Below are positions 20,230-23,513 of a stretch of 37,175 nucleotides of DNA, in pieces (the first letter of the stretch is position 1; the number at the start of each line of letters is the position of its first letter). Below the pieces are notes generated by a model. The model worked only from the letters and a program-made list of their open reading frames with translations, was not told where the DNA came from and did not search any database. Made by a program: the position numbers and the translations under genes. This stretch comes from Allokutzneria sp. NRRL B-24872 (GTDB taxonomy: Bacteria; Actinomycetota; Actinomycetes; Mycobacteriales; Pseudonocardiaceae): contig NZ_MUMH01000012.1 of the NCBI RefSeq assembly GCF_002155965.1, positions 1 to 37,175 of the forward strand, in the 5' to 3' direction.

Positions 20230-21363
20230 TCAGCGGGGGTCGAGCAGGTCGGTGACGATGCGCCCGACCTGGTCGGCCTCGATGAGCAGGCCGTCGTGGC
20301 CGTAGTCGGAGCGCACCACCTGCAACGGCCCGGCGGTCGGGATGTGGTCGGCGATGAACTGCTGCTGCTCCAACGGATAGATGCGGTCGCTGTCCACACC
20401 CGCCACCGCGACCCGAGCGGTGACCCGGCCCAGGGCCGCCTCGACACCACCGCGATCCCGGCCGACGTCGAAGCTGGTCATCGCCCGGGTGAGCGCGACG
20501 TAGCTCCCGGCGTCGAAGCGGTGCGCCAGCTTCCGCGCGTGGTGGTCCAAATAGGACTCGACGGCGAAGCGGTCCTCACCGGGCTGGCGCGAGTGGCCGA
20601 AGCGCGCCTCCAACTCCGCCGGAGCGCGGTAGGTGGTGTGCGCGATCCGCCGCGCCAGGCTGAGCCCGAGGTGCGGGCCGACCGGCTTGTCGTAGTAGTC
20701 CCCTTCGTGCCACCCGGGATCGCTGTAGATGGCGCTCAACTGCGTGTAGCACCAGGCGATCTGCTCGGCCGAGGCGACCGCGGTGCCCGCGAGCACCAGC
20801 GCGGATTCCACCCGATCGGGCTGGTCGACGATCCACTCCAGCGTCCGCATGCTGCCGAGGGAACCGCCGATCACCGCGGCCCAGCGGCGCACGCCGAGCG
20901 CGTCGGCCAGGTGCGCCTCGGCGCGGGTCATGTCCCGCACGGACAGCGCGGGGAACCGACTTCCCCACGGTTTCCCTTGCGGGTCAAGGGAAGACGGCCC
21001 GGTGCTGCCCTGGCAGCCGCCGAGCGCGTTGGTGCACACGATGAACCAGCGCTCGGGGTCGACGGCGCGACCCGGCCCGACCAGCTCGCTCCACCAACCC
21101 GGCGTGGGATGTCCCTCCCCCGCCTCGCCGATCACGTGGCTGTCCCCGGTGAGCGCGTGCTCCACCAGGATCGCGTTCCCGCCGTCGGGCGCGAGGGTGC
21201 CCCACGTCTCGTAGGCGAGCTTGCCGCCGAGCAGGACCCCGCCCGACTGCAACGGGAACGGGTCGGGCAGCGCGAAGAACTTCCGCTGTCCGGGGTGGTC
21301 CCCCTCCCGCCACGCGGCCGTGACGGGAAGGGGGGCCGAGATGTCCGGGCGCACCAGGGTCAT
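20230..21363 (-). CDS. metX: Homoserine O-acetyltransferase MetX
   Basis: This 377-aa alpha/beta hydrolase-fold enzyme activates homoserine with acetyl-CoA for methionine synthesis. The nucleophile is S168 in IGGSLGSM, the family acid lies in AGVDSDRIYP (D324 or D326) and the base is H356 (YGHDG); the NALGGCQGSTGPSS segment is typical of MetX. Its ATG overlaps the metY stop (ATGA at 21360-21363), and no separate ribosome site is evident, so it is translated by coupling. It is the second gene of metY-metX, controlled by the leader at 22741-22818. Confidence 0.96.
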   Translation of the reverse strand: MTLVRPDISAPLPVTAAWREGDHPGQRKFFALPDPFPLQSGGVLLGGKLAYETWGTLAPDGGNAILVEHALTGDSHVIGEAGEGHPTPGWWSELVGPGRAVDPERWFIVCTNALGGCQGSTGPSSLDPQGKPWGSRFPALSVRDMTRAEAHLADALGVRRWAAVIGGSLGSMRTLEWIVDQPDRVESALVLAGTAVASAEQIAWCYTQLSAIYSDPGWHEGDYYDKPVGPHLGLSLARRIAHTTYRAPAELEARFGHSRQPGEDRFAVESYLDHHARKLAHRFDAGSYVALTRAMTSFDVGRDRGGVEAALGRVTARVAVAGVDSDRIYPLEQQQFIADHIPTAGPLQVVRSDYGHDGLLIEADQVGRIVTDLLDPR

Positions 21364-22664
21364 TGACGCAACGCCGCCTTTGCCGCGCGAAAACCCGAAT
21401 CCAGATCGGCTTTCAGGTCCTCGACGCCCTCGATTCCGACGGCGAGCCGCACCAGGCCGGGAGTGACCCCGCTGGCCAGGCGTTCCGCCTCGGAGAGCTG
21501 ACTGTGGGTAGTACTCGCGGGGTGGGCGACCAGGCTGCGCACATCGCCGATGTTGACCAGGTGGCTGAACAGCTCCAACCCGTCCACGAACGCGCGACCC
21601 GCTTGCACACCACCGCGAAGCTCGAAAGCTACCACCGCCCCCGCGCCGCGCGGCAGGTACCGCTGCGCAAGATCGAACCACGGGCTGTCCGGCAGGCCCG
21701 CGTAGTGCACGGCCTCGACCTCGTCCCTGGCCGCGAGCCACTCCGCGAGCGCCCGCGCGTTGGCCACGTGCCGCTCGATGCGCAGCGACAGCGTCTCGAT
21801 CCCTTGCAGCAGAAGGAAAGCGTTGAACGGCGAGAGCGCGGGTCCGAGGTCGCGCAGCCCCTGAACGCGAAGTTTCGCCGCGAAAGCCCCGTGTCCGAGC
21901 ACCGGCCAGTACCGCAGCCCGTTGTAGCTGGGGTCGGGCTCGTTGAAGCCGGGGAAGCGCTCCGGCTCCAGGCCGAAGTCGAACTTGCCGCCGTCCACGA
22001 CGACGCCGCCGATCGCGGTGCCGTGCCCGCCCAGGTACTTCGTGGCCGAGTGCACCACGATGTCCGCGCCGTGGTCCAAGGGCCGCAACAGGTACGGCGT
22101 CGGCACGGTGTTGTCGACGATGAGCGGGACGCCCGCCGTGTGCGCGATGTCGGCCACCGCGGTGATGTCCAGGACGTTGCTGCGCGGGTTGGCCAGCGTC
22201 TCGGCGAAGAAAGCCTTGGTGTTGGGCCGGATCGCGGCCCGCCACGCGGTCAGGTCGTCCGGGTCCTCGACGAAGCTGACCTCGATGCCGAGCTTGGGAA
22301 GGGTGTAGTGGAACAGGTTGTAGGTGCCGCCGTAGAGCGAGGCGCTGGAGACGATGTGGTCACCCGCGCTCGCCAGCGTCAGCACGGTCAGCGTCTCCGC
22401 CGCCTGTCCCGAAGCCAGCGCCACGGCCGCGACCCCGCCCTCCAGCGCGGCGAGCCGCTGCTCCAGCGCGTCCTGGGTCGGGTTGTTGATGCGCGTGTAG
22501 ATGTTGCCCGGTTCGGCGAGGCTGAACAGGTTAGCCGCGTGCTCGGTGTCGCGGAAGACGAACGAGGTCGTCTGGTAGATCGGCACCGCGCGCGCTCCGG
22601 TCGCGGGGTCGGCCTGGGTGCCGGAGTGGACCTGCTTCGTCTCGAACGACCAGTTTTCGGGCAT
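21360..22664 (-). CDS. metY: O-acetylhomoserine sulfhydrylase MetY
   Basis: The 434-aa PLP enzyme joins sulfide to O-acetylhomoserine to give homocysteine. PLP lysine K209 lies in VVHSATKYLGGHGTAIGG; YTRINNPTQDALE binds the phosphate; the length of about 430 aa and the insertion FDFGLEPERFPGFNEPDPSY separate it from cystathionine synthases. The ATG at 22664 (MPENWSFETK) follows GAGGAG with seven bases spacing; an ATG at 22679 would lack this. Its product uses the ester made by MetX from the same message. An attenuator-like terminator lies just upstream. Confidence 0.96.
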   Translation of the reverse strand: MPENWSFETKQVHSGTQADPATGARAVPIYQTTSFVFRDTEHAANLFSLAEPGNIYTRINNPTQDALEQRLAALEGGVAAVALASGQAAETLTVLTLASAGDHIVSSASLYGGTYNLFHYTLPKLGIEVSFVEDPDDLTAWRAAIRPNTKAFFAETLANPRSNVLDITAVADIAHTAGVPLIVDNTVPTPYLLRPLDHGADIVVHSATKYLGGHGTAIGGVVVDGGKFDFGLEPERFPGFNEPDPSYNGLRYWPVLGHGAFAAKLRVQGLRDLGPALSPFNAFLLLQGIETLSLRIERHVANARALAEWLAARDEVEAVHYAGLPDSPWFDLAQRYLPRGAGAVVAFELRGGVQAGRAFVDGLELFSHLVNIGDVRSLVAHPASTTHSQLSEAERLASGVTPGLVRLAVGIEGVEDLKADLDSGFRAAKAALRQ

Positions 22665-22692
22665 GGCTGTACTCCTCAACGGGATAAGCGAG

Positions 22693-22717
22693 AAAAAGGG
22701 CGCGCGAAATACGCGCG
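22693..22717 (-). terminator. Attenuator hairpin upstream of metY
   Basis: On the minus strand CGCGCG-TATTT-CGCGCG is followed by CCC and TTTTT, a classical intrinsic terminator. It lies after the leader peptide and 29 bases before the metY ATG, so it should stop transcription unless prevented. A second small hairpin GGGC-TGA-GCCC includes the leader stop codon. Confidence 0.65.
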
Positions 22718-22740
22718 AGAAGAGGAAGGAGGGTCGGGGC

Positions 22741-22818
22741 TCAGCCCGCGAAGCGGCGACAGCCCATGCTGTTCACGCGGAGAAGGTCCACGTGCAGACG
22801 CCGTACCAGTCCGGTCAC
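22741..22818 (-). CDS. Leader peptide for metY-metX (RLHVDLLRV type)
   Basis: A 25-codon frame starts at GTG 22818 and contains RRLHVDLLRVNSMGCRR. This matches the core R(R/L)HVDL-x-R-V-x-S...C of short leader peptides annotated in front of sulfur genes in actinobacteria. It is probably leaderless: TAGTCT at 22826-22831 (minus strand) lies seven bases from the GTG and there is no Shine-Dalgarno. Stalling or release at its Cys codon or stop would alter the hairpins downstream and so control metY-metX by sulfur amino acid supply. The mechanism is inferred. Confidence 0.7.
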   Translation of the reverse strand: MTGLVRRLHVDLLRVNSMGCRRFAG

Positions 22819-22825
22819 GCTGCGC

Positions 22826-22831
22826 AGACTA
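22826..22831 (-). promoter_or_regulatory. -10 of leaderless metY leader transcript
   Basis: TAGTCT (minus strand) is placed seven bases before the leader GTG. The -35 is weak (TGGGCC at 22850-22855, 18 bases away). Confidence 0.5.
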
Positions 22832-22871
22832 ACAGCGGCGCACAGCGACGGCCCACGATGTGAGAGCTTTC

Positions 22872-22901
22872 TTGACCGCATTCCCGGAGCACCCCGACCA
22901 T
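22872..22901 (+). promoter_or_regulatory. Promoter of leaderless osmC leader transcript
   Basis: TTGACC (22872-22877) and GACCAT (22896-22901) are separated by 18 bases, and the -10 ends six bases before the leader GTG at 22908. This is a good housekeeping-type -35 and a fair -10 for a leaderless start. Confidence 0.6.
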
Positions 22902-22907
22902 TGCGAC

Positions 22908-22973
22908 GTGATCCTCACCAAAAGGCGTCACGTCGACCTGTGCCGGTCGACCACATCGCGCTGTCCGGCCTGA
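22908..22973 (+). CDS. Leader peptide for osmC (KRRHVDLCR type)
   Basis: A 21-codon frame from GTG 22908 contains TKRRHVDLCRSTTSRCPA with two Cys codons, a very close match to the known KRRHVDLCR leader-peptide core. It is preceded by a promoter that would make a leaderless message. It ends 39 bases before the osmC ATG, and its TGA lies within a seven-base hairpin stem. The sister leader for metY-metX is read from the other strand, 90 bases away. Cysteine-sensing attenuation is the likely role, by analogy with cysteine-responsive upstream ORFs of mycobacteria. Confidence 0.75.
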   Translation: MILTKRRHVDLCRSTTSRCPA

Positions 22974-22994
22974 CGGAATCCCTTTCCCCGTCAG
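22970..22994 (+). promoter_or_regulatory. Hairpin overlapping leader stop, before osmC
   Basis: CTGACGG (22970-22976) pairs with CCGTCAG (22988-22994) around an 11-base loop and is followed by CCTTTCCC. The leader TGA (22971-22973) is inside the stem, so a ribosome finishing the leader must keep it open. Confidence 0.55.
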
Positions 22995-23012
22995 CCTTTC
23001 CCAGGAGCGCGC

Positions 23013-23513
23013 ATGTCCCTGTCCGAAGTCATCGACGCCACCCGCGACGCCGTCACCGACGACGTGAACCGGGCGACGGTCACCTTCCGCACCACCAACG
23101 CCCTCGTCCCCGGCACCCCCACCCAGGTCAGCGTCGAGGCCCGCGGGCACGGCTTCGCCGTCGACGAACCCGCCTCCCTCGGCGGCACCGACGTCGCCCC
23201 CAACCCCGTCGAGTACGCCCTCGCCGCGCTCGGCTCCTGCCAGGTGATCACCTACCAGTTCTGGGCGGCGCGGCTGGGCATCCAGCTCGACGGGATCTCC
23301 GTGACCGTGGAGGGCGACCTCGACGTGCGCGGCTTCTTCGGCTTCGCCGAGCACATCCGGCCCGGCTTCACCGCGATCCGCGTGCAGGTCTCGCTGACCG
23401 GGCCGGAAACCCGCGCCCGCTACGAGGAGCTTCGCTGGAACGCCGACCGGCACTGCCCCGTGCTCGACCTCTTCCGCGCGGAAACCCCCACCCGCACGGC
23501 GCTGGCGCTCTAG
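23013..23513 (+). CDS. OsmC/Ohr-family thiol peroxidase
   Basis: The 166-aa cytoplasmic protein has the two reactive cysteines of OsmC/Ohr proteins: C76 (LAALGSCQVITYQF) and C148 (DRHCPVLDLF). Such proteins reduce organic hydroperoxides using a dithiol. AGGAG lies six bases before the ATG. It is the first full gene after the Cys-containing leader at 22908 and is divergent from metY-metX, linking peroxide defence to sulfur amino acid status. Confidence 0.92.
   Translation: MSLSEVIDATRDAVTDDVNRATVTFRTTNALVPGTPTQVSVEARGHGFAVDEPASLGGTDVAPNPVEYALAALGSCQVITYQFWAARLGIQLDGISVTVEGDLDVRGFFGFAEHIRPGFTAIRVQVSLTGPETRARYEELRWNADRHCPVLDLFRAETPTRTALAL

Follow-up and report, generated by a model that had tools for sequence, protein, structure and literature searches.

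Two divergent leader peptides between metY-metX and an osmC-like gene of Allokutzneria: a candidate pair of cysteine-responsive attenuators

The divergent metY–osmC region and its leader frames

The window analyzed here is a stretch of 37,175 nucleotides from Allokutzneria sp. NRRL B-24872 (contig NZ_MUMH01000012.1, forward strand). Within it, metY (ATG at 22664, minus strand) and an osmC-like gene (ATG at 23013, plus strand) are arranged divergently around 348 nt of intergenic DNA. The metY stop overlaps the start of metX as ATGA. The product of the osmC-like gene matches its Pfam family and scores below the cut-off of the NCBIfam family OsmC_like_Se (70.6 of 95). The features of the region are as follows:

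20230–21363, minus strand: metX, homoserine O-acetyltransferase (NF047917, 493.5, cut-off 475)
21360–22664, minus strand: metY, O-acetylhomoserine sulfhydrylase, ATG at 22664 (PRK07812, 818.8 bits, cut-off 703)
22662–22670, minus strand: metY start region ACAGCCATG
22701–22717, minus strand: terminator-like hairpin with CCCTTTTT in the spacer on the metY side; G034 shares the stem but not the T run
22741–22818, minus strand: metY-side leader uORF VTGLVRRLHVDLLRVNSMGCRRFAG, GTG 22818–22816, TGA 22743–22741, 25 amino acids
22759–22768, minus strand: leader segment CATGGGCTGT, holding the Cys codon TGT (22761–22759), complementary to the metY start region
22826–22831, minus strand: −10-like TAGTCT, 7 nt before the minus GTG
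22852–22866, no strand: dyad CCCACGATGTGAGAG / CTCTCACATCGTGGG, 15 bp, candidate shared operator upstream of both promoters
22872–22877, plus strand: −35-like TTGACC of the plus leader, 18 nt upstream of the plus −10; kept in G034
22896–22901, plus strand: −10-like GACCAT, 6 nt before the plus GTG; kept in G034
22908–22973, plus strand: osmC-side leader uORF VILTKRRHVDLCRSTTSRCPA, GTG 22908–22910, TGA 22971–22973, 21 amino acids
22962–22964, plus strand: C-terminal Cys codon TGT of the plus leader, whose earlier Cys codon is TGC
23013–23513, plus strand: osmC-like gene, ATG at 23013 (Pfam PF02566, 76.8 bits)

An earlier note on this DNA had described two GTG-started frames, one per strand, and both are present as claimed, with a GTG-to-GTG spacing of 89 nt (90 in the note). 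A six-frame search of the 37-kb window for their shared motif, R[RLIKG]H[VI]D[LYFQH], gave two occurrences and no more, one in each of these leaders. That such a coincidence on opposite strands is hard to obtain by chance is borne out by dinucleotide shuffling of the intergenic region: of 20,000 shuffled versions, 10 contained the motif at all and none contained it on both strands. The frames also belong to one leader-peptide family: both match NCBIfam NF042934—the plus leader above the cut-off of 27 (33.6 bits, E 2.1e-08), the minus leader just below it (25.3 bits, E 8.3e-06). Because of this score under the curated cut-off, the minus leader is treated as a relative of the family and not as a filed member.

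Two other genomes of the genus, G034 and G068, were compared with the source genome (G000). In G034, the nearest relative, both HVDL-type leaders are conserved: the minus leader shows three synonymous and no amino acid changes, the plus leader one synonymous change and one amino acid change (I2L). The in-frame codons directly 5′ of the GTGs behave differently, with one synonymous and six amino acid changes in the 21 codons before the minus GTG and no synonymous and three amino acid changes in the 16 before the plus GTG. Hence, residue-changing differences outside against mostly synonymous ones inside the frames favor the GTG starts and the leaderless layout. In G068, both leaders are lost, and metY and osmC are themselves remnants there; the loss in close relatives that would have spoken against the frames is thus seen only together with decay of their genes.

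This leaderless-looking layout, which the earlier note had proposed, is reflected by −10-like hexamers 7 nt (minus) and 6 nt (plus) before the GTGs, both kept in G034. A strict sigma-70 consensus scan of positions 22640–23040 returned no promoter, and the promoter assignments hence rest on comparison. A riboswitch, of the SAM type or any other, was rejected as the control element of the locus, as an Rfam search of positions 22500–23200 gave no match at E up to 5.

The leader family and its cysteine codon

For a wider view, 53 metY orthologues of 73–100% identity were taken from 91 rows, the other 38 (67% or less) being left out. Leaders were detected by protein-level regular expressions plus reading, which yielded 22—21 by pattern and that of L083 by reading—and left 31 orthologues without a recognized leader, counting as leaderless the decayed, Cys-free frame of L113. 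The 21 pattern-found leaders align as R-x-HVD-x-x-R-V-T-S-M-A-C, in which R, H, V, D, the second R, and C do not vary, whereby the constancy of R, H, V, and D is partly given by construction, since the search pattern demanded R, H, V or I, and D. L083 departs from this consensus with HAN in place of HVD. The start codon lies six codons before the R-x-HVD block in 17 of the 21, and 18 of the 21 carry TANNNT 6–8 nt before the start, with starts as chosen by the script.

Short open frames are common in GC-rich DNA, and with the minus frame under the NF042934 cut-off one might read the two frames as products of chance. This is highly improbable. Next to the synonymous-rich change in G034 and the empty outcome of the shuffles, the aligned metY leaders vary mainly at third codon positions (entropy 0.95, against 0.50 and 0.49 at the others) and are found in 13 genera as judged by genus labels. 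Both frames are real, conserved mini-genes.

The cysteine content of these mini-genes is low. The minus leader bears one Cys, as does the metY leader of G034, and the plus leader two separated ones, so that contiguous Cys codons are absent from both leaders of the pair. At the conserved position, the codon is TGT in all 21 aligned metY leaders, although TGT was not part of the protein-level search, and also in all six leaders facing osmC. Elsewhere, TGT makes up 17 of 150 Cys codons at nine named loci, 5 of 26 in six frames of the window, and none of 13 in the covered portions of the downstream genes. A family-wide TGT rule was rejected, because 30 further family leaders (L033–L062) split evenly into 15 with TGT and 15 with TGC; the rule hence belongs to the metY and osmC targets. 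Among the 15 TGC leaders, 12 stand before genes whose beginning resembles that of the sulfite reductase gene behind leader L004, which is the only one of these genes checked against Pfam, and two before TauE-like genes (the target of L042 is unassigned); the leader L004 itself and three of the 15 TGT leaders likewise stand before sulfite-reductase-like genes. The constancy of TGT could be demanded by RNA pairing or by the slowness of a wobble codon. As the leaders are related sequences, these codon counts and the swap and recoding controls below depend on each other.

The family itself is widespread: in the bacterial family of the host, at least 97 of 100 genomes have an NF042934 match at E up to 0.001, and at least 92 have one above the cut-off. 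The source genome contains five such leaders, including the metY/osmC pair. Of the others, L004 lies ahead of a nitrite/sulfite reductase gene and L001 ahead of an SDF symporter gene; single examples checked in other genomes stand before TauE, ABC-permease, DUF4395, and SBP56 genes. The common thread of these targets would appear to be a sulfur regulon. Two pattern searches for divergent leader pairs found one of 396 genomes of the phylum (the source) and four of 297 genomes of the family (the source and three more); a reversed control pattern matched 5 of the 297, and since the pair pattern misses even the pair of G034, these searches cannot speak to the rarity of such pairs.

Proposed control at the DNA and RNA level

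Between the two promoters lies the dyad CTCTCACATSGTGGG at 22852–22866. Exact copies occur singly in the source genome, in G034, and in the Crossiella-like G016, G055, and G086—always at the metY/osmC locus—and none is present in the same-genus G068. Relative to the minus leader, the dyad sits at −47 to −32 and scores 11 of 13 (shuffle p ≤ 0.01); relative to the plus leader, it sits at −57 to −42 and scores 10 of 13, which is not significant (p = 0.07). A related dyad scoring at least 11 of 13 precedes 14 of the 21 metY leaders, the other seven showing no significant one. Eleven of these 14 lie between about −57 and −40 relative to the leader start and that of L085 at −63 to −48, whereas the two Allokutzneria dyads, at −47 to −32, are about one helical turn nearer. 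The pattern TCYCA-N5-TGRRMR (at most one mismatch) is found within 300 nt upstream of 33 of the 53 metY genes and in none of 53 coding stretches, a contrast to be read with the dyad patterns having been derived by eye on the very metY genes that were then counted and the coding control not being matched in composition.

By class, the pattern precedes 16 of 22 metY genes with a leader and 17 of 31 without. As it also stands before metY genes that have no recognized leader, the dyad forms a layer separate from the leader. It is a possible methionine or sulfur operator, and its position—a possible site of joint control, in line with the earlier note—suggests one candidate operator that would serve both sides. 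The fact that the dyad can act leader-free also lends itself to a simpler reading, in which the dyad alone regulates and the frames do no more than receive ribosomes by leaderless initiation and pass them on to the downstream gene. Such a division of labor is rather doubtful, given that the peptide is conserved, its TGT codon is constant, and the gaps of 29–230 nt from leader stop to gene are unlike tight coupling.

A second layer might lie in the RNA. Pairing is possible between the leader segment CATGGGCTGT and the metY start region ACAGCCATG, and likewise between CGCGCTGTCC of the plus leader and the osmC ribosome-binding site. In a simple folding model, the openness of the metY AUG rises from 0.02 in the free RNA to 0.42 with a ribosome on the Cys codon and that of the osmC AUG from 0.03 to 0.53, while the Shine-Dalgarno stretches show no opening on stalling (0.35 to 0.25 for metY, 0.33 to 0.29 for osmC). 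The metY AUG of G034 behaves in the model as in the source (0.37 free, 0.02 refolded, 0.50 stalled); the osmC AUG of G034 closes on stalling (0.66 free, 0.56 refolded, 0.15 stalled). Among the 52 metY starts that were read—the start region of L086 was left out—ACAGCCATG is found at eight, and each of these eight genes is preceded by a leader with M-A-C or M-G-C at its end.

Controls on this pairing give a divided picture. When partners were swapped among 27 leaders, 2 of 1000 swaps paired as well, with 3 of 1000 for the six osmC-facing leaders and 93 of 1000 for metY alone. Synonymous recoding gave p = 0.017 for the minus and 0.05 for the plus leader, 0.23 and 0.20 for those of G034, and p = 0.12 when combined over the 27 leaders. 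Many other metY leaders, above all those with long gaps, show little or no pairing with the start. Leader–start pairing did not stand up as a general rule on these grounds, and at the metY/osmC locus it is plausible as far as the model goes.

Leader translation might instead control termination before the gene, be it intrinsic or Rho-dependent. The terminator-like hairpin at 22717–22701 and the C/T-rich spacers, noted by eye on both sides, are consistent with this. Precedent comes from a 2005 study (PMC1262725), in whose accessible text actinobacterial leader ORFs containing Cys codons are reported upstream of mycobacterial cys operons, with no clear terminator, and Rho is suggested. Those leaders resemble the present pair in both respects; they differ in that no conserved RNA structure is described there before methionine operons, and "metY" is absent from the accessible text. 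However, the hairpin of G034 has no T run and no terminator-like site was found on the osmC side, so that no conserved intrinsic terminator is present: there is one site, on the minus side only. Transcriptional attenuation is therefore judged unlikely as the main mode, and a terminator-type form of the attenuator proposed in the earlier note is weakly supported.

The reading we favor, with a confidence somewhat above even, is that of a leaderless, cysteine-responsive pair of leader attenuators around one candidate operator, acting mainly on translation. Two divergent cis-acting leader peptides of the actinobacterial Cys-leader kind would tune metY-metX and osmC as a sulfur-assimilation unit. 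A ribosome would start on the GTG at the 5′ end of each mRNA and read the leader. With cysteine, that is Cys-tRNA, in plentiful supply, it would run through, and the RNA around the TGT codon would refold onto the start region of the next gene, keeping translation of this gene low. With cysteine scarce, the ribosome would halt at TGT and cover the RNA segment, whereby the downstream start would open. The dyad would add a transcriptional layer. We infer leader translation, the cysteine signal, stalling, and the RNA switch as steps of this scheme, and likewise a protein at the dyad with an action on both sides. The two mini-genes would thus probably let the cell tune both neighbors to its cysteine supply. 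What speaks against this reading, besides the sub-threshold score of the minus leader, the divided pairing controls, and the non-significant dyad score on the plus side, is that 31 of the 53 metY orthologues and 14 of the 19 osmC homologues have no recognized leader, and that in two Crossiella-like genomes with divergent metY and osmC the leader is confined to the metY side. The odds we give to this attenuator pair, to nascent-chain arrest, to transcriptional attenuation, and to ribosome feeding overlap.

Arrest of the nascent chain is the variant that the peptide itself brings to mind. TnaC-type arrest peptides bear conserved residues before the stall codon; the likeness to the metY/osmC leaders is an analogy only, with no shared sequence claimed and stalling being a proposal here. 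The R-x-HVD-x-x-R-V stretch might stall the ribosome from the upper exit tunnel with TGT in the A site, cysteine or a related metabolite setting the release, so that the peptide and not the codon alone would be the sensor. In the 21 aligned metY leaders, the conserved R, H, V, D, and R precede the Cys by 6 to 13 residues, amid synonymous variation, and a mere codon counter would have no need of them; moreover, the metY leaders of the source and of G034 offer one Cys and no run. Against this, the invariance of R, H, V/I, and D is partly built into the search pattern, L083 has HAN, and the equally constant Cys codon is explained by codon counting. Arrest is hence a tentative option that we do not expect to hold. 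Similarly speculative is a combined form—a double-sided cysteine gauge in which R-x-HVD-x-x-R-V-T-S-M-A arrest peptides with an obligatory TGT point in opposite directions around a shared operator as a movable module.

The favored attenuator pair builds on a known kind of switch and a catalogued family; its unusual side is the back-to-back use around one candidate shared control site. NF042934 is filed as a cis_reg_atten "putative leader peptide" and holds the same short R-x-HVD...C peptide kind as both leaders; compared by description only, its name and description line state no target, mechanism, or pairing. Further known systems of a similar kind are the Cys-rich leader families Ms4527A and Ms5788A (NF042936 and NF042933), which we take to be the attenuators of Canestrari 2020. 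The minus leader scores 21.7 bits against Ms4527A and the plus leader 27 bits against Ms5788A, both weak hits that fall far short of the 45-bit cut-offs. In Mycobacterium smegmatis, according to the accessible text of PMC9031893 and PMC13236596, leaderless ORFs that contain contiguous Cys codons adjust the translation downstream of them to cysteine (Canestrari 2020). Hereby, Ms4527A and Ms5788A bear contiguous Cys codons, whereas the present leaders have one (minus) or two separated ones (plus).

More generally, the accessible literature on RNA-level cysteine sensing in actinobacteria concerns Cys-codon runs in mycobacteria. Among the matches listed from open-licence papers, searched by titles and the starts of abstracts, there was no paper on a divergent metY/osmC leader pair, and a search of open-licence papers by family and leader names returned none. 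What makes this variant worth testing is that the leaders are paired divergently, that one of them faces osmC, and that TGT is constant. A leader with only one conserved Cys, an invariant rare codon, and a conserved peptide motif also allows codon supply and nascent-chain arrest to be told apart by a few point changes.

osmC as a probable sulfur gene and the possible mobility of the leader cassette

The earlier note had proposed a joint sensing switch covering homocysteine synthesis and peroxide defense. The joint part of this claim is consistent with the shared family, the conservation in G034, the sulfur context of both leaders, and the possible joint site; the peroxide branch is less supported. 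The sulfur context is given by metY-metX on one side and, on the other, by osmC sharing operons with metY elsewhere: G019 and G080 show the order leader-osmC-metY on one strand, where metY is a paralogue with about 56% identity; in two Cyclobacteriaceae, the order is osmC-metY-metX. With OsmC relatives sitting in metY operons, peroxide defense as the main role of this osmC is less likely, as far as gene order can tell.

A possible parallel comes from Pelagibacter, where osmC and metY, both behind SAM-V riboswitches, are among the transcripts most raised by sulfur limitation; in the accessible text of the same study, OsmC is nonetheless discussed as a peroxidase (PMC5069961). As proposed for the present case, the two genes come under one kind of translational switch. 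SAM-V is, however, a ligand-binding RNA without a leader peptide, and the metY/osmC region has no Rfam match. Less firmly than the mini-genes themselves, metY-metX and osmC can be read as one sulfur unit, which would tie an OsmC-like protein, usually filed under peroxide defense, to methionine synthesis by direct sulfhydrylation.

Nineteen of 100 genomes of the host family have an osmC homologue; five of these carry a leader on the osmC strand (L063, L064, L096, L109, and L110) and 14 no recognized one. metY adjoins osmC in 6 of the 19, and an osmC leader is present in four of those six against one of the other 13, neighbor counts for whole-genome loci being limited to flanks of 1.5 kb. Among 12 osmC homologues from named contigs (L006–L017), a leader is found at L012 only. 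Across 296 genomes of the class, eight have an osmC homologue at E up to 1e-25; the seven besides the source have no metY within the flanks, and six of them have no leader.

The genomes of Crossiella type indicate how osmC might have come by its leader. G016 and G086 have a divergent metY and osmC, with a leader oriented toward metY and no counterpart before osmC. G055 has lost metY, and its leader keeps the orientation away from osmC. Relative to G055, Crossiella sp. SN42 (L012) shows an inversion of 190 bp, subsequent to the loss of metY, that comprises dyad, promoter, and leader, and the leader now reads into osmC (L012:3738–3927 against L108:1237–1426, 92% identity, with flanks of 96–98%). 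From these two sequences, it seems that osmC captured the cassette of metY. The locus of Allokutzneria sp. A3M-2-11, probably the same genome as G068, shows a full-length match to metX next to remnants of metY and osmC, and a search there yielded no leader. Leader cassettes are hence kept, lost, and flipped together with their genes.

Some side observations remain. In Allokutzneria sp. A3M-2-11, the decayed metY and osmC are adjacent to each other beside the full-length metX (L032:3480–4200). Outside the bacterial family of the host, a leader-like frame, RRHIDPLYVAAGTC, lies 69 nt before the osmC homologue L156, the last of the seven found in the class besides the source. In the source genome, leader L003 (G000:C67:10540–10593) precedes a gene of 326 codons that gave no Pfam match over its first 200 residues and is a possible additional member of the sulfur regulon. 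Finally, leaders L062 and L038—and, by likeness, L037, L039, and L053—stand before SBP56 and DUF4395 genes, for both of which this hints at a part in sulfur metabolism.
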